Assembly: GCF_004366035.1 (NCBI RefSeq)
Contig: NZ_SOEE01000005.1
Location: 62,001-126,000, forward strand
DNA: 64,000 nt
Source: Cytobacillus oceanisediminis
Lineage (GTDB): Bacteria > Bacillota > Bacilli > Bacillales > Cytobacillaceae
Direction: 5' to 3'
Both the position numbers and the translations under genes were made by a program. Of the stretch, positions 29,951 through 63,105 are shown in pieces (position 1 is the first letter of the stretch; each line of letters starts with the position of its first letter). The notes beneath the pieces were generated by a model. It was not told the DNA's origin and made no database searches. It saw only the letters and a program-made list of their open reading frames with translations.

Positions 29951-29964
29951 TTCCATGAATGTGG

Positions 29965-30165
29965 ACTTTGCAAATTGAGTGTGAAAGCTGCAAATAGCAA
30001 GGGTCGTATTGCAAATAGCAGACTACTTTCTGCTAATAAAAATAGGAATTTGCATATAGCAGCCTACTTTCTGCTAATAAAATATTCGGGAAACAACCAT
30101 TGTCTAACACTTGCATATAGAGTTGGATAATATGCAAATAGAGCACAAAAACCTGCAAATAAACT
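29965..30165 (+). repeat. Phased repeat array A (TGCAAATAG, 20-21 bp period)
   Basis: Core copies start at 29969, 29989, 30010, 30031, 30051, 30072, 30112, 30133 and 30154. Spacings are 20, 21, 21, 20, 21, 40, 21, 21. Variants include TGCATATAG and TGCTAATAA. Spacers are not conserved. The stretch lies between the shortened small gene and the NERD gene, and holds no convincing gene. Confidence 0.85.
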
Positions 30166-31507: not shown

Positions 31508-31783
31508 ATGGAAGAACATATGAGGGACCTGATGATTTTGTGTGATTATAAGAACAGGCATGTCATTTTGAATTATTATTATGAAGAGGAGCTTATTGAT
31601 CGGGATGGAATCAGCTTTAATGAGATTTACGTCCACGAGGGGACGATTTATTTTATCAAAAACAGAAAGCGGATCGTAACCATCAACTCGAAGAAGTATC
31701 GTAATATATTGATAGGCGAGGATTTTCAAAATTACTATATTATGCGGAGAGATAAGAATCGTCTTGATATCTATTTTCCTTAA
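31508..31783 (+). CDS. Hypothetical 91-residue protein
   Basis: A basic, Tyr-rich protein (ILNYYYEEELIDRDG, NSKKYRNILIGEDFQNYYIMRRDKNRLDIYF) with no membrane segment and no motif I recognise. ATG 31508 almost touches the previous stop; ATG 31520 (MRDLMILC) is an alternative start. It is likely coupled to the upstream CGCGG protein. A terminator follows within 10 bases. Confidence 0.65.
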   Translation: MEEHMRDLMILCDYKNRHVILNYYYEEELIDRDGISFNEIYVHEGTIYFIKNRKRIVTINSKKYRNILIGEDFQNYYIMRRDKNRLDIYFP

Positions 31784-31787
31784 ACAG

Positions 31788-31827
31788 AGCAGCGAAAGCG
31801 CTGGATACGCTTTTGCAGCTTTTTTTA
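31788..31827 (+). terminator. Terminator of the two-gene small-protein operon
   Basis: AGCAGCGAAAGCG and CGCTTTTGCAGCT form an imperfect stem followed by seven T residues. Confidence 0.8.
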
Positions 31828-31843
31828 TTTGGGAGGAATATAT

Positions 31844-32201
31844 CTATTTGCAGGAAGCCTGAATCTACTTGCGAGTTCCCAGTTCTTTTTGCAAAATCTA
31901 AGATTCTATTTGCAATTTGATAATCCTAGACTGATCCCCGATCTATTGCTGCTCGTCTATTTGCAGGTAGCAGCCTGGTATTTGCATTTTTCCAGTTCTA
32001 TTTGCAGAATACTCCGGTTTATTTTCAGAATCCCCGGTTCTATTTGCAAATCAACTAAACGAGCCGTTTCCCGTTCTTATGCAGTTCATCTATATGCAGA
32101 ATCCAACTAACTATTTGTAAATTACCTATTCTATTTGCAGAATTTCCAGCCCTATTTGCAGGGTTAAGAGTCTATTTGTATGTTTCCGTGCTCTTTTTGC
32201 A
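31844..32201 (-). repeat. Phased repeat array B (CTATTTGCA, 20-21 bp period)
   Basis: The longest array. CTATTTGCA-like cores start at 31844, 31865, 31885, 31906, 31957, 31978, 31998, 32019, 32040, 32090, 32111, 32131, 32152, 32172 and 32193. Within each run the steps are only 20 or 21. It fills the space between two convergent terminators and contains no credible gene. Confidence 0.9.
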
Positions 32202-32230
32202 GGGGTCACATTCTGAACCCGCGGCCACAT

Positions 32231-32260
32231 AAAAACAGACCCGCCAAACCGGCGGGTCCT
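32231..32260 (-). terminator. Terminator of the dCache chemoreceptor gene
   Basis: GACCCGCC-ggttt-GGCGGGTC followed on the minus strand by TGTTTTT. Confidence 0.9.
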
Positions 32261-32265
32261 TCTAT

Positions 32266-34263
32266 TTAATTCACTTTAAACTTCTTAATAGAATCCAGCA
32301 GCTCCTCCGCCATTCCCGAAAGCGAAGCAGCAGATGCCGCAATTTCTTCCATGGACGCGAGCTGCTCTTCTGTAGCAGCGGATACATCCTGGCTTTCGGC
32401 TGTGGTGACAGCGGCAATTTCTTCGATTGCGCTTACGAGTTCTACCACCTGGTCGGCACCTTCGGCCATGTCCTTGATGGATGAGGAAACTTCCGCGATC
32501 TGGCCCGAAACGGTGTCGGCAAATTGCTGGATGTGGCTGAAAGCATCTCCGGCATTGTTAACCAGGTCAATTCCTTTTTCCACTTCAGCTGTTCCTTTTT
32601 CCATTGAAGTGATGGCCTTGCTTGTGTCCGTTTGGATCGTTGATATCAGTTCGCGGATGCTTTCCGTCGATTTCGATGATTGTTCCGCCAGCTTGCGGAC
32701 TTCATCGGCTACAACGGCGAAGCCTCTTCCGTGCTCACCTGCCCTTGCTGCTTCTATCGCTGCGTTCAGTGCGAGCAGATTCGTCTGGTCTGCAATTTCA
32801 GAAATGACATTGACAATCTGGCCAATTTCCTCCGAACGCTTCCCTAGAGTATGGACAATTGAGCCTAGTTCAGAGACTGTTAGATTAATATTTTTCATCT
32901 GGTTTGTTGAAAGGTCGATCGCTTCATTTCCTTTTACAACCACTTCATTTGTTTCATTAGCTGTTTGGGCAACGACATTTGTGTTGAGCATGATTCTCTG
33001 AATGCGGCCGGACATCTCCTTTACGACAGAAGTGCTTTCTTTCACCTTTTCCGTCTGCTGCTCAGTAGCTGTCGCTACTTCCTGGATGGAGTTGGCCACC
33101 TGCTCTGTTGCCATGTTATTCTGTTCGGAGCTCGCCGTCAGCTGTTCCGATGACGAAGCAAGGTGAACCGCTTTTTCACCTACCTGGTTGATTAATTGCT
33201 GAAGCGAGGCGACCATCTTATTGAAGCTGATGCCCAGTTTGCTGATTTCATCGTTATTTTTAACATCAAATTTCTGGGTCAGGTCTCCCTGGCTGACTTT
33301 ATCTGTTGCGGTAATCAGCTGATTGAGCGGGCGTGTAATCGAACGGACAATAAAATATGAAATAAGTGCACCTATAAGTACGAAAATGGCTATGAATATA
33401 ATTGTCGATACTAGGATAGGCTCTACGGCTGATGTTACTTCTTCCAGATTCATTGTGCCAAGCACCTTCATCCCTGTCAGCCCATTGGTGGTAAAGTGCA
33501 TTTCTATCTTTTCGCCATCAAGAGTGTATTCTACCTGCCCTTTTTCCTTTTCCAGGACTTCCGGCAGCCAGCTTCCCTCTGCCTGTGCGCCTGGCTTCTC
33601 CTGCGGGTGAACTAAAAAGCTTCCCTCCGCACTTAAGATAGCGGGATATCCTTCCTTCCCAATCTTAATGTTATTGGATAGCTCACTTAGAGCAGAGAGA
33701 CTTAAATCAATCCCGATAACACCAGAGCTGTCACCGAGCTTTTGGGCTACTGTGATTAGGATATTTCCGCTTACAGCATCAACATATGGCTCTGTGATGA
33801 AGGCTTTTCCCTTTGCCTCCATGGCTCCCTGATACCAGGGGCGTGTGGTTGCATCAAAGTCAGCCGGCAAATCTGCACGCGGATAAATGACTAAATCGCC
33901 ATTTTCAGAGCCTGCATAAATGGCGACTGCCTCCGGATTCAGCTCTTTATATTGACTAAAGGCTTTATTCGTCTCCTCTAATTCTTCCGCAGTATAGAAA
34001 TCCTTCTTTATCCGTTTTGAAAAATAATTCGTATCTTCCATTTTTGTTTTAATAAAGTCCATGATAAATTGGTCAAGGATTTTTACATTGTCATCCGCAC
34101 TCATTTCAATCTGGCTTGTTATCTCATCTTGAGCCTTTTGATAGGAAATGTATCCAATTGAAGTGGATGGGATTAATAGAATAATAATAAATGAGAGCAA
34201 TAATTTCTTTCTAATCGTAAATGAAAACAGTGACCCTTTTTCTTTCTGTTTTTTCTTTTTCAT
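32266..34263 (-). CDS. Transmembrane methyl-accepting chemotaxis protein (dCache)
   Basis: 665 residues. A basic N-terminus and helix ([22 protein letters not shown]) lead to an extracellular double-Cache sensor (about 40-280, with [37 protein letters not shown] and GVIGIDLSL). The second helix, [22 protein letters not shown], is followed by HAMP (about 305-358) and the signalling domain with its hairpin tip [51 protein letters not shown]. The Cache domain has the WYxxA and FxDP-like regions known for small ligands such as amino or organic acids. ATG is preceded by AAAGGGG. Confidence 0.95.
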
Positions 34264-41385: not shown

Positions 41386-41505
41386 AAAGGATCCCTCCTT
41401 CTATCATAATTTTCTAAATTATAGCACTTTTAGAACAAATAAAGAGGATAGGTCAATTGCGAACTACTCAGGAGAGTTGCTTTCTGTATTGGCGATTGTG
41501 AACTT

Positions 41506-41632
41506 TGCAAATAAAAGCGGGTAACCTGCAATTAAAGATGTTAATTTTGCAAATAGACTGTTAGAACCTGCAAATAAATGGCCAATGCTGCAAATAAAGG
41601 TGGGATTCTTGCAAATAGACCACTGCACATAG
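41506..41632 (+). repeat. Phased repeat array C (TGCAAATA, 20-21 bp period)
   Basis: Cores start at 41506, 41527, 41548, 41569, 41589 and 41610 (steps 21, 21, 21, 20, 21). A weaker TGCACATAG is at 41624. The rest of the 41386-41694 gap holds only the terminator that follows. Confidence 0.85.
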
Positions 41633-47555: not shown

Positions 47556-47569
47556 GTGAATTTGAACAT

Positions 47570-47683
47570 TACTAATAGAAACGGGAAAATTGTAAATAGA
47601 AAAGCTCATTTTGCAAATAGATTGCTTGAATCTGCATATAGAATGACCAAACCTGCATATAGAGGGGAGAATTCCGCAAATAG
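47570..47683 (+). repeat. Phased repeat array D (TGCAAATAG, 21 bp period)
   Basis: Cores start at 47570, 47591, 47612, 47633, 47654 and 47675, each exactly 21 bp apart. Variants are TACTAATAG, TGTAAATAG, TGCAAATAG, TGCATATAG (twice) and CGCAAATAG. Confidence 0.87.
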
Positions 47684-50852: not shown

Positions 50853-52118
50853 TCATTTATGAAAGTTCACTTTCTCTTTTATCTCCCCAAACATCACAGA
50901 TGTCTCGCTGGGTTTCGTTTCAGCAATTACTTTTCCATTTCTTATGGAATACCTGACAGCTGCCTGTCTCCTGATCGCTTCATACTCATTTTCCGCATCA
51001 AGAATGATCAGGTTGGCCGGTTTGCCAGCTTCAATTCCATATTTCTCTTCAATATTTAATGTCTTAGCACTATTATTTGTAATCAGGTCCAAGGAGTTAA
51101 CAATTTGCTCATAGCCCATCAGCTGTGACACATGGATGCCCATGTGGAGCACCTGCAGCATATTGCCGGTACCAAGCGGATACCATGGATCGAAGATATC
51201 GTCATGGCCGAAGCTTACGTTAAGCCCTGCTTCAAGCAATTCTTTTACTCTTGTAATCCCTCTGCGCTTTGGATACGTATCAAAGCGCCCCTGAAGATGG
51301 ATATTTACGAGCGGGTTGGCGACAAAATTAATGTTTGATAGCTTTAACAGTCTGAATAGCTTGTAGGTATAAGCATCATTATACGAGCCCATTGCCGTTG
51401 TATGACTGGCTGTTACCCGGCTGCCCAATCCGCGTTCATAAGCTTCCGCAGCCACTACTTCCACAAAGCGTGACTGTTCATCATCGATTTCATCACAATG
51501 GATATCTACCAGGCGGTCATATTTTTCTGCAAGATCAAAGGCAGTTTTCATTGAAGAAACGCCATACTCCCTTGTGAACTCGAAATGAGGAATGCCCCCT
51601 ACGACATCAGCGCCCATTTTCAGTGCTTCCTCCATGAGCTCGGCGCCGCTTGGATAAGAATTGATTCCCTCCTGCGGGAAGGCGACAAGCTGGAGGTCCA
51701 CAAAGTCAGACATTTCTTCTTTTACTTCTAAAAGCGCTTTTAAAGCAGTCAGAGTGGGATCTGTTACATCCACATGGGTGCGGACATGCTGAATCCCCTG
51801 GGCAATCTGCCATTTCAATGCTGTTTTCGCCCGTGTTTTTACATCGTCATGTGTAAGGGTTTCTTTTCTTTGTGCCCATCTTTGAATGCCTTCAAATAAT
51901 GTTCCGCTCTTGTTCCATTCAGGCTCTCCGGCTGTCAGGGTTGTATCCAGATGAATATGGGGCTCGATAAATGGTGCCGAAACCAGGGATCCTGCAGCAT
52001 CAAGAATTTCACGGCCTGATTCCACTTCCCCTTGTGATAAGCTATGAATCTTTCCGTCTTGTATCGCTATATTCCATAGGCCTTCCCGGTCTCTTAGTTT
52101 TGCATTTTTAATAATCAC
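50853..52118 (-). CDS. codA: Cytosine deaminase
   Basis: 421 residues of the amidohydrolase superfamily. Metal and catalytic motifs: PHIHLDTTL (about 57), [12 protein letters not shown] (about 212, including the catalytic Glu), SHTTAM (about 243) and [14 protein letters not shown] (about 311), the last highly typical of cytosine deaminases. It converts cytosine to uracil and ammonia for pyrimidine salvage. The GTG start overlaps the end of codB, so it is translationally coupled. Related isoguanine or creatinine deaminases are less likely because of the codB partner and PyrR leader. Confidence 0.93.
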
Positions 52119-53376
52119 TTCTTAATTCCCCTTCCCTGACTGTCTTCTTACCTTGTAAAGCAGCAGCCAATTTTGATACTAAAACAAATGTTACGGCTGA
52201 TCCCAACAGCGAGTTGATTGGCGGGATTCCCGGCACAAAATTTGCCGCAGCCACGCCGGCTGCCCATGCAAGGATGGCGATCCAGTTAACAGCCTTAAAC
52301 TTCATATCTGCAAACTTCTTATACTCTCCGCGATTCACAATAAAGTAATCTGCTAAGATGATAGCCCCTATGGACGGCAGCGTCGATCCCAGAACCGTCA
52401 GGAACCCGACAAAGTTGTTGTACAGCCACATGGCTGCAATCGTTCCGATAATCCCGTTGAAGATGACAACCTTTCCTTTTCGGATCTTTAAAATGCTTGC
52501 AAACCCTAAGCCTGATGCATATAAAGCGTTATCGTTCGTTGTCCAGATATTTAAACCAAGAACCAGAATCGCCGGGAAAATCAGCTGTTGGATGAACATG
52601 ACTTCTGAAATATCAGATTGCCCTGTTGCGATTGCACCAATTGCACCGAAGAGGAACATGATAGAGTTTCCAATGAAGAAGGCGATGACAGTTGATACTA
52701 CTGCTGAACGCTTTGTATTTGAGAATCGCGCAAAGTCCGGAGTCAGCGTGCCCGCACTGATAAACGAACCTACGCAAATCGTTAAGGCCGCTGCAAGACT
52801 AGTAGCCTCTGTTGGCTGATATTGCATAAGTCCTTCCAGGCCGCCTGCTGTTTCTGTTGCTTTAAAAACCGAGAAGCTTCCTAGAATAGTGATTAAAGGG
52901 ACAGCTACGAAGCTCAGGATTGCCAGCGCCTTCATGCCGAAGAAGGCTGTGCCTGTCATCAGCAGACCTGCTGCTGCAATCAGGAGATACGCATCAAGTC
53001 CTGTTACTTTCTGAACCGGCAGCGCAAACATCGCTACCCCAACGCCAAACCACCCAACCTGAGTCGCAGCCAGCAAAAAGGATGATAGGTAAGATCCTTT
53101 TTCACCGAAGGCATAGCGGGTAAGCAGGTGCGTTGATAAGCCTGTTTTTGCGGCAATATAAGCAAGGGCTCCTGTGTAAGCACCTAAAATCAAGTTGCCT
53201 GCGAGAACGATTCCTATAAATTGAATGAACGTTAATCCTGTTCCAAGCGTTCCGCCTGACCACATGCTGGCTGAGAAGAAGGTCAGGCCGAGCATCACCA
53301 CAAGCATTTTCCAAAAACCGTTGCGATGCCCCTGGGGTACCGCCTCTAACGAAAAATCCAAATCTATTTTTTTCAT
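52108..53376 (-). CDS. codB: Cytosine permease (NCS1 family)
   Basis: 422 residues from ATG 53376 (GGAGGAATTGGT upstream), 12 helices. NCS1 features: [70 protein letters not shown] and [18 protein letters not shown]. It imports cytosine by proton or sodium symport. The open frame runs another 52 codons upstream, but that is the PyrR-binding leader and attenuator, not protein. Operon partner is codA, overlapping by 11 bases. Confidence 0.93.
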
Positions 53377-53444
53377 ACCAATTCCTCCATTCATTTTTTT
53401 GGACTGGTACCGAAGGATTTTCGATAGTAAGTGGATGGAAAAAG

Positions 53445-53485
53445 AAAAAGGCTTCTCGCCGTTTTCCGACAAGAAGCCTTTTTTC
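53445..53485 (-). terminator. Attenuator terminator in the codB leader
   Basis: AAGGCTTCT pairs with AGAAGCCTT (inner GTCGGAAAACGGC), followed on the minus strand by a T-rich run. It lies between the PyrR site and the codB ribosome site. Confidence 0.88.
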
Positions 53486-53540
53486 TGCATGAATAACCCC
53501 TGGGCAGGCTGCACCTCACCCATTGGCATCATACTTCCGC

Positions 53541-62362: not shown

Positions 62363-62394
62363 AGTCTCGGGCATTAATTGTTTTGGATGCACAC

Positions 62395-62427
62395 AAAAGG
62401 CCGGCTCAATTGAAACCGGCCCTTTTG
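62395..62427. terminator. Bidirectional terminator between convergent genes
   Basis: AAAAGGCCGG pairs with CCGGCCCTTTT, giving T-runs on both strands between the activator and the STAS-like gene. Confidence 0.88.
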
Positions 62428-62487
62428 ACATTTCCTTATTTCATTTCCGGATTGCAAAGGGAATCCATCAAATGTAAGGATAACTCC

Positions 62488-62844
62488 TCACTCTTTAATC
62501 CAAGTCCATGCTTCCTCAAGCTGATGGCCTTCAAAGTATTCAACTTTAATGCCAGGCAGGTAGTCTGTAAGCTTCGATACAGTTCCTATCCAGTCTTTGT
62601 CACTGACAACAGCGAATTTATTAAACTGTTTCCATCTTTTTATATCAAATTCCATTCCTTCCGTGGCACCTTGGAAAGTGGTTCCGTCTACATCAGTCAT
62701 AATGGCCAGAATATTGAACTTCTGGTCATCTTTAAAATTTTCTCCCACGTATTGATCCAGCTTTTCAGCATCTTCCGTGGTTGCATTGCCATTAAAAGCG
62801 ATGGCGATAGTAGAAGGAGAGCGGGATTCTATGAATTGAAGCAT
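62488..62844 (-). CDS. SpoIIAA-like (STAS/SEC14-type) protein
   Basis: About 118 residues. IAIAFNGNATTEDAEKLDQYV, KFNILAIMTDVDGTTFQGATEGMEFDIKRWKQFNKFAVVSDKDWIGTVSKL and the acidic C-terminus match the SpoIIAA-like family, a CRAL-TRIO/STAS-related lipid- or partner-binding fold. Role unknown; likely cytoplasmic. ATG 62844 is eight bases after GGAGG; the ATG at 62850 is only two bases away. Single-gene unit. Confidence 0.85.
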   Translation of the reverse strand: MLQFIESRSPSTIAIAFNGNATTEDAEKLDQYVGENFKDDQKFNILAIMTDVDGTTFQGATEGMEFDIKRWKQFNKFAVVSDKDWIGTVSKLTDYLPGIKVEYFEGHQLEEAWTWIKE

Positions 62845-62938
62845 ATTCATTACCTCCAGGTTGTTTTTATTGAGGTAATTTCCCGATTCATAGGAATGAA
62901 AAACTATCGGTGCGGAGTTTTTTATTGGAAATAGGGTA

Positions 62939-63050
62939 CTATTTGCAGGTTTTTGCTCTCTATTTGCAAGACTGTTATTCTATTTGCAGAATTGAATACT
63001 TTATTTGCAAGATTTGCCTTCTATTTGCAGATTGGAAAACTCTATTTGCA
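62939..63050 (-). repeat. Phased repeat array E (CTATTTGCA, alternating 21/20 bp)
   Basis: Cores start at 62939, 62960, 62980, 63001, 63021 and 63042 (steps 21, 20, 21, 20, 21). Five of the six are exact CTATTTGCA and one is TTATTTGCA. Confidence 0.92.
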
Positions 63051-63073
63051 GCGTTCACAATTCGGTTCTTTTC

Positions 63074-63105
63074 AAATAAAAATAGAACCAGCCTCGCCGG
63101 TTCTA
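63074..63105 (-). terminator. Terminator of the desaturase-like gene
   Basis: AGAACCGGC / GCTGGTTCT-type stem followed on the minus strand by ATTTTTATTTG, directly after the stop codon. Confidence 0.82.

Follow-up and report, generated by a model that had tools for sequence, protein, structure and literature searches.

Five arrays in the window

Five intergenic gaps of the window, the 64,000-nucleotide stretch of Cytobacillus oceanisediminis DNA analysed here, contain arrays of a 9-bp core, CTATTTGCA, which reads TGCAAATAG on the opposite strand. The longest, array B (31844..32201, plus strand), consists of blocks of 4+5+6 readable CTATTTGCA-type cores, 15 in all, and is followed by the tail GGGGTCACATTC (32202..32213, plus strand), a variant of nnGTTCACAnTTC. 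A terminator-like hairpin with a T tract (31788..31828, plus strand; by eye) lies between a 91-aa ORF (31508-31783, plus strand) and the 5' side of this array, and the tail is faced by the terminator-like hairpin (32227..32260, minus strand; by eye) of a methyl-accepting chemotaxis gene (32266-34263, minus strand). Array A (minus strand; cores 29969-30162, or 29957..30162 with its tail AAGTCCACATTC) has 9 readable cores, arranged 3+6, with a PIG-L/NEW3 gene on one side and a NERD gene on the other; its tail is 363 bp from the gene end it faces. The remaining three have six cores each. Array C (minus strand; cores 41506-41618, 41493..41618 with the tail AAGTTCACAATC) lies behind a GntP-type permease gene, and array D (minus strand; cores 47570-47683, the last being CTATTAGTA, 47558..47683 with the tail ATGTTCAAATTC) behind an M42 peptidase gene. 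Array E (plus strand; cores 62939-63050, 62939..63063 with the tail GCGTTCACAATTC) faces the 3' end of a fatty-acid desaturase gene, whose terminator hairpin (63084..63104, minus strand; locus L225, position counted) is found between the stop codon and the tail. Against R1, a sequence-only model made from 42 six-unit elements, arrays C, D and E score 86.2, 80.7 and 88.8 bits, and the last six-core block of array B (G000:C5:94084-94214) scores 79.6 bits.

The initial annotation had reported a common core in five unlinked gaps, and all five arrays are where it placed them, with 9, 15, 6, 6 and 6 readable cores from A to E. Its orientations also hold (TGCAAATAG on the plus strand in A, C and D, on the minus strand in B and E), as do the steps that it gave for array B, namely 21,20,21, a gap of 51, 21,20,21,21, a gap of 50, and 21,20,21,20,21. 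Single cores with at most one mismatch number 62 in the window, against a mean of 26.18 and a maximum of 41 in 100 shuffles; same-strand core pairs at a lag of 20 or 21, again with at most one mismatch, number 24, and 0 in each of 40 dinucleotide shuffles. The spacers had been described as not conserved, and those of the window are indeed alike no more than composition predicts, with a mean identity (of 11) of 3.73 within arrays and 3.92 between them, where 4.05 is expected. The sole copy-like spacer pair inside one window array is in array A.

No shared function is apparent among the ten genes flanking the five arrays. The 91-aa ORF beside array B and a 183-aa ORF (62383-62934, plus strand) beside array E have no Pfam or NCBIfam match. 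With Rfam at gathering scores, the window gives only a PyrR-binding RNA element (RF00515; 53443-53578, minus strand), at the 5' end of an ORF at 52108-53532 (minus strand).

Architecture of the elements

Other genomes bear out the regular step. In 80 stretches from other genomes, exact cores peak at 21, 41, 61-62, 82, 103, 123, 143 and so on up to 288 bp, and their spacing gives a step of 20.57 bp. The annotated step of 20 or 21 bp, with a mean of about 20.6, thus holds for the window blocks and for these stretches; it is not universal, since genome means range from about 20.0 to 21.0. The peak at 288 bp has the width of independent 20/21 steps, so that no long-range phase locking is seen. These 80 stretches (L009-L088) come from the 87 found, L089-L095 being left out, and include 10 from records of other taxa, which are kept in the spacing and block counts and dropped from the counts of gene placement; one of those dropped is L052, whose genome is placed in the genus of the window.

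Chaining the cores of the 80 stretches and the window yields 98 arrays composed of 179 blocks, the commonest block having six cores (62/179 blocks, and 31 of the 63 single-block arrays). Six cores and a 3' tail make up the natural unit; the tail, nnGTTCACAnTTC, follows the sixth core and is clear in most elements, not in all. Within the element the units alternate: when one element is taken from each of 17 site groups (out of the 31 that contain a six-core block), G follows the core in 37/51 odd units versus 15/51 even units (p = 2.5e-5), a G/A alternation. The fifth step is 21 in 17/17, and steps two and four are 20 in 7/17 each. From the first to the sixth core the mean distance is 103.8 bp, or ten turns at 10.4 bp. 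AT-rich unit positions (2-6, 9 and 12-13) alternate with GC-rich ones, and the AT content along the unit has higher power near 10.3 bp than near 20.6 bp, a periodicity compatible with wrapping.

Many of the longer arrays are tandem duplications of six-core-type blocks, often with a linker, and the arrays of Cytobacillus firmus and Mesobacillus carry higher-order tandem duplications. The earlier statement that the arrays are not simple duplications is therefore right for the window and too general for the relatives: the long C. firmus arrays grew by duplication, and spacers that are copies of one another, absent in the window, do occur in some relatives such as this species. In G040 (L184-L191), TTATTTGCAA and TATTTTTGCAA-like units alternate, giving a 40-bp superperiod, and one array of this genome has 78 chained cores.

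The arrays are non-coding. They have mixed 20/21 steps and lie in intergenic gaps, and the ORFs inside them are spurious; such ORFs appear in 41/88 arrays in plain gene calls, and the flanking genes were called with codon scoring.

Occurrence and core variants in relatives

Exact core pairs are present in 12/31 genomes, all 12 in the genus of the window, and a reversed control pattern gave none. A three-core pattern matches mainly Cytobacillus firmus, C. oceanisediminis, Cytobacillus sp., Mesobacillus maritimus and Bacillus sp. NTK034, with further matches in a record titled Paenibacillus and single stretches in unrelated taxa. Two of the titles concerned are Pseudomonas sp. ISL-84 (L052) and Paenibacillus sp. 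FSL R5-0490 (L009 and other NZ_MRTQ01 loci); L052 and L009 match G013 and G044, both placed in the genus of the window, and the record titles look wrong. A viral pattern scan returned 20 contigs with one or two core pairs each. A plasmid or phage origin was rejected, array E having no blastn match in plasmids or phages. The R1 model extends the distribution to 32/36 genus genomes (E <= 0.01; no match in G017, G033, G034 and G038) and to 89/151 family genomes in 17/25 genera (E <= 1e-4), although, being built from CTATTTGCA arrays, it favours TATTNGC-like cores in other genomes.

In these other genomes the step stays at about 20-21 bp, often with five or six units, and the core differs. Variants across the relatives include TATTAGC, TATTCGC and TATTTTC; by genome, the cores read are CTATTAGCCG in G098, CTATTTTCA in G116, TTATTCGCGAA in G069, TTATTCGCAAA in G076, TTACTTGC in G101, CTATTTGCC in G107 and G123, and TTATTTGCGA in G035, G049, G088, G135, G144 and G150. 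Eight genomes (G069, G076, G088, G098, G106, G107, G116 and G123) have two unlinked arrays with a common variant; G073 is the exception, with two core variants within one genome. Since unlinked arrays mostly share their variant despite unrelated spacers, copying of units does not explain the sharing. The commonest chain length in the relatives is six (19/79), followed by five (12/79), overlapping chains included. The reading of core variants covered 67 loci, of which 9 had no flanking genes called and 13 no readable chain; among the latter are six of the window genome's nine weak R1 matches.

Selection on the cores and turnover of the elements

Across four chosen orthologous groups of Cytobacillus relatives, pairwise divergence is 0.041 in the cores (198 columns) and 0.237 in the spacers (212 columns; p = 3.7e-16), with 0.173 and 0.166 in the flanks in the same type of comparison. 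Group members were chosen by hand (6/8 in group 13; 5/6 in group 18, where L213 of the window genome was left out; 3/7 in E; and 4/10 array-bearing loci at the C site), and three of the four came from searches with exact cores and may for that reason be biased to conserved ones. At the C site, found through the permease gene, the core diverges by 0.056 and the spacer by 0.208 (p = 0.0018). At the E site, found through the desaturase gene alone and represented by 4 of its 12 arrays, the values are 0.080 and 0.267 (p = 4.4e-5), and the flank, at 0.076, is conserved as much as the cores. The conserved part of the array is the specific 9-bp core, and these comparisons make it a well-supported conclusion that the cores are under selection while the spacers drift.

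Whole elements come and go at a given site. The desaturase gene of the E site is present in 21/36 genus genomes, where it is followed by an array in 12, a contracted array in 1, an empty site in 7 (G006, G009, G005, G013, G002, G004 and G010) and unrelated sequence in 1 (G007). Among the 16 orthologs read at the C site, 10 have arrays, G045 has two core-like units and 5 have none. The G045 arrays are cut to one core-like unit at the E site (L240) and two at the C site (L256) with the outer flanks kept, the single unit of the E site also retaining its tail, a contraction as by recombination between units. By eye, no clear target duplication is found at the E and C sites. Whole elements are missing from close relatives, so that no array is essential by itself.

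Other sequences also occupy these gaps. In L257, L258 and L261, 3' of the permease gene, the array is replaced by another, partly GC-rich, inverted-repeat-like sequence, alike in L257 and L258. In several relatives (L227-L238) an A/T inverted repeat (like TTTTATTGGAAA and TTTCCAATAAAA) stands on both sides of the E array, with a counterpart in the window at 62913-62938 and 63064-63083; it may represent either the ends of the element or two facing terminators.

Placement relative to genes and to the chromosome

Both flanking genes were called in 24 site groups; in 21 of these the tail-side gene is oriented towards the array. The arrangement is co-directional in the common sense in 16 groups, co-directional in the other sense in 2, convergent in 5 and divergent in 1. 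Each group takes the majority call of its members; in group 12, 2/5 members (both L024 arrays) are divergent, and group 0, the array A site, is divergent in L009 and L064. The same tendency is seen at 34/44 further loci (P = 1.9e-4; 3 divergent), 20 from the genus and 24 from eight other genera, and at 18/24 of those from other genera only. These 44 were typed by hand with one chain per locus, L288 being dropped for its overlap with L224. Under this common rule TGCAAATAG reads on the sense strand of the gene ending beside the array; in the window, arrays C and D are oriented the other way round.

A hairpin with a T tract separates the stop codon from the array in 15/19 tail-side and 7/7 5'-side cases (one member per group, gaps <250 bp), compared with 17/200 random 90-mers; this control is random DNA and not other gene ends, so that the count establishes a position behind terminators and no special link to them.

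Replication polarity was rejected as the orientation rule, as it performs no better than gene polarity in G001 and G012: TGCAAATAG is co-oriented with replication at 16/23 sites in G001 (one strand-ambiguous site left out) and at 11/18 in G012 (11/19 with one omitted site).

The strong sites (at least 60 bits) are concentrated, 10/15 in G001 and 6/6 in G012 falling inside 250 kb, and 0/5000 Monte Carlo trials were as dense in either genome. When weak sites are included, the densest 250 kb holds 10/23 in G001, with no trial as dense, and 6/18 in G012 (P = 0.01). The weaker R1 matches are dispersed, and part of them are unreadable as arrays. The dense segment of G001 lies about 290-530 kb left of oriC (located from parS-like sites), and sites occur on both strands within the cluster. 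In G073 and G107, of other genera, the listed array positions look spread by eye.

Possible function of the elements

The phase, the modal unit number, the tail, the core conservation, the core variants, the 3' placement and the polarity of the elements are established here; a binding protein, wrapping and a barrier role are inferences from them. Selection for a multivalent DNA-binding protein, as suggested in the initial annotation, is well supported by the conserved cores, the drifting spacers and the core variant common to unlinked arrays, and we regard it as likely that the arrays are a binding array for a sequence-specific protein. A termination-related role, also raised there, is unproven and fits the placement, at gene 3' ends, behind terminators and polar; a nucleoid role is possible. 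For DNA curvature, likewise named there, the relevant observations are that conservation falls on a specific 9-bp core and that AT content along the unit has its higher power near 10.3 bp. On balance we lean towards the arrays being cis-acting sites for a putative cooperative DNA-binding protein, possibly serving as a post-terminator transcription barrier. Such a sequence-specific protein would bind cooperatively along one DNA face, usually at six (in other genera often five) 9-bp sites that are two turns apart and span about ten turns. One oligomer could bridge or perhaps wrap the element, and the resulting polar barrier would halt RNA polymerase reading past the terminator, insulating the neighbouring gene. 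Because the element is polar and lies behind terminators, a barrier to readthrough seems preferable to a purely architectural role; taken on its own, the barrier behind the terminator is a tentative and somewhat doubtful proposal.

Wider readings and rivals differ in how much of this they would explain. A bolder version of the binding hypothesis, rather unlikely in our view, is a family-wide polar, nucleosome-sized nucleoprotein element in which six phased sites would be wrapped by one oligomer of a new protein, its specificity drifting between species and the arrays of a genome changing core together; if true, bacteria would have an equivalent of the terminator-site arrays that follow eukaryotic rDNA. 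Similarly unlikely, with an appreciable minority chance, is chromosome architecture, where a nucleoid, segregation or domain-forming protein would load or anchor at the arrays and the gene-end placement would reflect avoidance of promoters and coding DNA. The density of strong sites within 250 kb in G001 and G012, the location of the G001 segment relative to oriC, and an element length that suits wrapping, with AT content power near 10.3 bp, all speak for it. Nevertheless, a protein of this kind would not need polarity relative to genes, the strands are mixed within the cluster, and the clustering weakens in G012 once weak sites are counted and seems absent by eye from G073 and G107. The presence or absence of whole elements at the E site, together with the internal profile and tail common to unrelated sites, could also be read as the trace of small mobile or dispersed intergenic elements inserting as six-unit wholes behind terminators, with a transposition or recombination enzyme recognising the repeat; polar insertion near terminators would account for the orientation. 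We judge this improbable: neither target duplication nor constant ends beyond the tail are seen by eye, array E is without a match in plasmids or phages, and long vertical retention with core conservation exceeds what insertion explains.

A function at the RNA level, with repeats in read-through or antisense RNA binding a protein or pairing with other RNAs, would suit arrays that adjoin transcribed gene ends in sense orientation, and small RNAs have been proposed for 20-21-nt repeats in the part of PMC8161180 available to us. Yet most of the cases examined have a terminator separating the stop codon from the array, nothing about RNA would call for a spacing near two DNA turns, and 0/19 predicted RNA pairs of the arrays show compensatory change. 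Of eight single-strand folds, that of L061 is unusually stable (z = -4.05) and the other seven range from -1.84 to 0.49; conserved RNA structure was rejected on these data as the main explanation, and we hold an RNA function to be quite improbable. Very improbable indeed is the view that the arrays are neutral tandem repeats whose regularity is maintained by slippage and unequal recombination. The higher-order duplications of C. firmus and Mesobacillus and the G045 arrays cut to one or two units are what such processes would leave, but they explain neither the conservation of cores and not of spacers, the unrelated spacers of the window, nor the mode at six units. Should a protein indeed wrap arrays behind terminators, they would add a new layer to the organisation of bacterial transcription units or chromosomes, and would offer a natural case of protein-site co-evolution.

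Comparison with known systems

In the literature searched, subscription papers being mostly outside its scope, we found no description of a six-unit post-terminator element. Plasmid centromeres of the ParR/parC type and plasmid iterons are ~20-bp tandem direct repeats bound in phase by one protein. The present arrays differ from them in having many chromosomal copies behind genes, and no par or rep gene is among the ten genes flanking the window arrays. The repeated, polar terminator boxes of rDNA are a parallel in placement, and to our knowledge no bacterial roadblock terminator of this six-site geometry has been described. In yeast, Reb1 roadblock terminator sites are protein sites that follow genes and are regarded as a backup for termination, according to the part of PMC10310618 accessible to us. 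The gene-end placement is matched here, and a stop of RNA polymerase by a bound protein would be the putative counterpart; Reb1 and rDNA roadblock systems are eukaryotic, unlike the present arrays.

Bacterial systems with similar geometry are also informative. LytTR-family sites, as presented in the accessible part of PMC6193735, consist of two 9-bp direct repeats 11-13 bp apart, hence a 20-22-bp step, usually as a pair ~10 bp upstream of the promoter -35. To that extent the geometry is matched by the 9-bp cores and 11-12 bp spacers on one DNA face described here. In contrast, the LytTR sequences given there (e.g., ACCACTTAT) are by eye unlike CTATTTGCA/TATTNGC and its variants, and their placement is unmatched by up to six sites at gene 3' ends (promoters unmapped). 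RemA targets, in the portion of PMC8481266 available, are poorly conserved AT-rich direct repeats over ~107-159 bp, and the protein is a ring-shaped oligomer thought to wrap DNA, with protected sites every 10 bp; on that description they differ from arrays stepping by 20-21 bp. RemA is encoded in 16/16 genomes searched, with 65-72/72 residues identical to that of G000, the window genome, and is identical over 72 residues in 8/15 others, among them G076, G107 and G123, whose cores are different. We therefore rejected RemA as the source of the core variants, given its near or full identity between genomes with different cores. RemB is more variable than RemA (9/14 loci read). Beggiatoaceae genomes have many sets of intergenic TAACTGA direct repeats, with two to six copies of one short motif; from what can be seen of PMC4679880, these lie mostly just upstream of start codons, with a translational role proposed, whereas the arrays here lie behind genes.

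The closest precedent is provided by Subirana and Messeguer (2021; PMC8161180), who, in the part of their paper available to us, report non-coding, constant-size 20-21-nt tandem repeats in Bacillus, their function given as unknown, in which variable repeats have a short common signal and several arrays occur per genome, and for which a polymerising protein was proposed. Judged from that part, arrays of the window type fit in size, short common signal and non-coding nature, and belong with this descriptive class. The tables seen there list oceanisediminis only with 52-54-nt families, and a TATTCGCGG core would be compatible with the signal TCGCGG of Bacillus weihaiensis, which is a lead. The accessible text does not contain the six-unit polar architecture, the 3' placement or the core-versus-spacer selection. 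To the same extent, the present arrays differ by their modal six units, polar tail, alternating units and apparent core selection, and by their position in orthologous gaps of several species, behind terminators and with polarity. As to species specificity, core variants differ between genomes, and sites and cores are common to several Cytobacillus species. Two-turn constant-size repeats are found in many bacteria with no function reported, and one class of them has now become a defined object: its element length and polarity are given, as are the bases that appear to be under selection and the preferred position with respect to genes, and its core variants are usable as matched baits.
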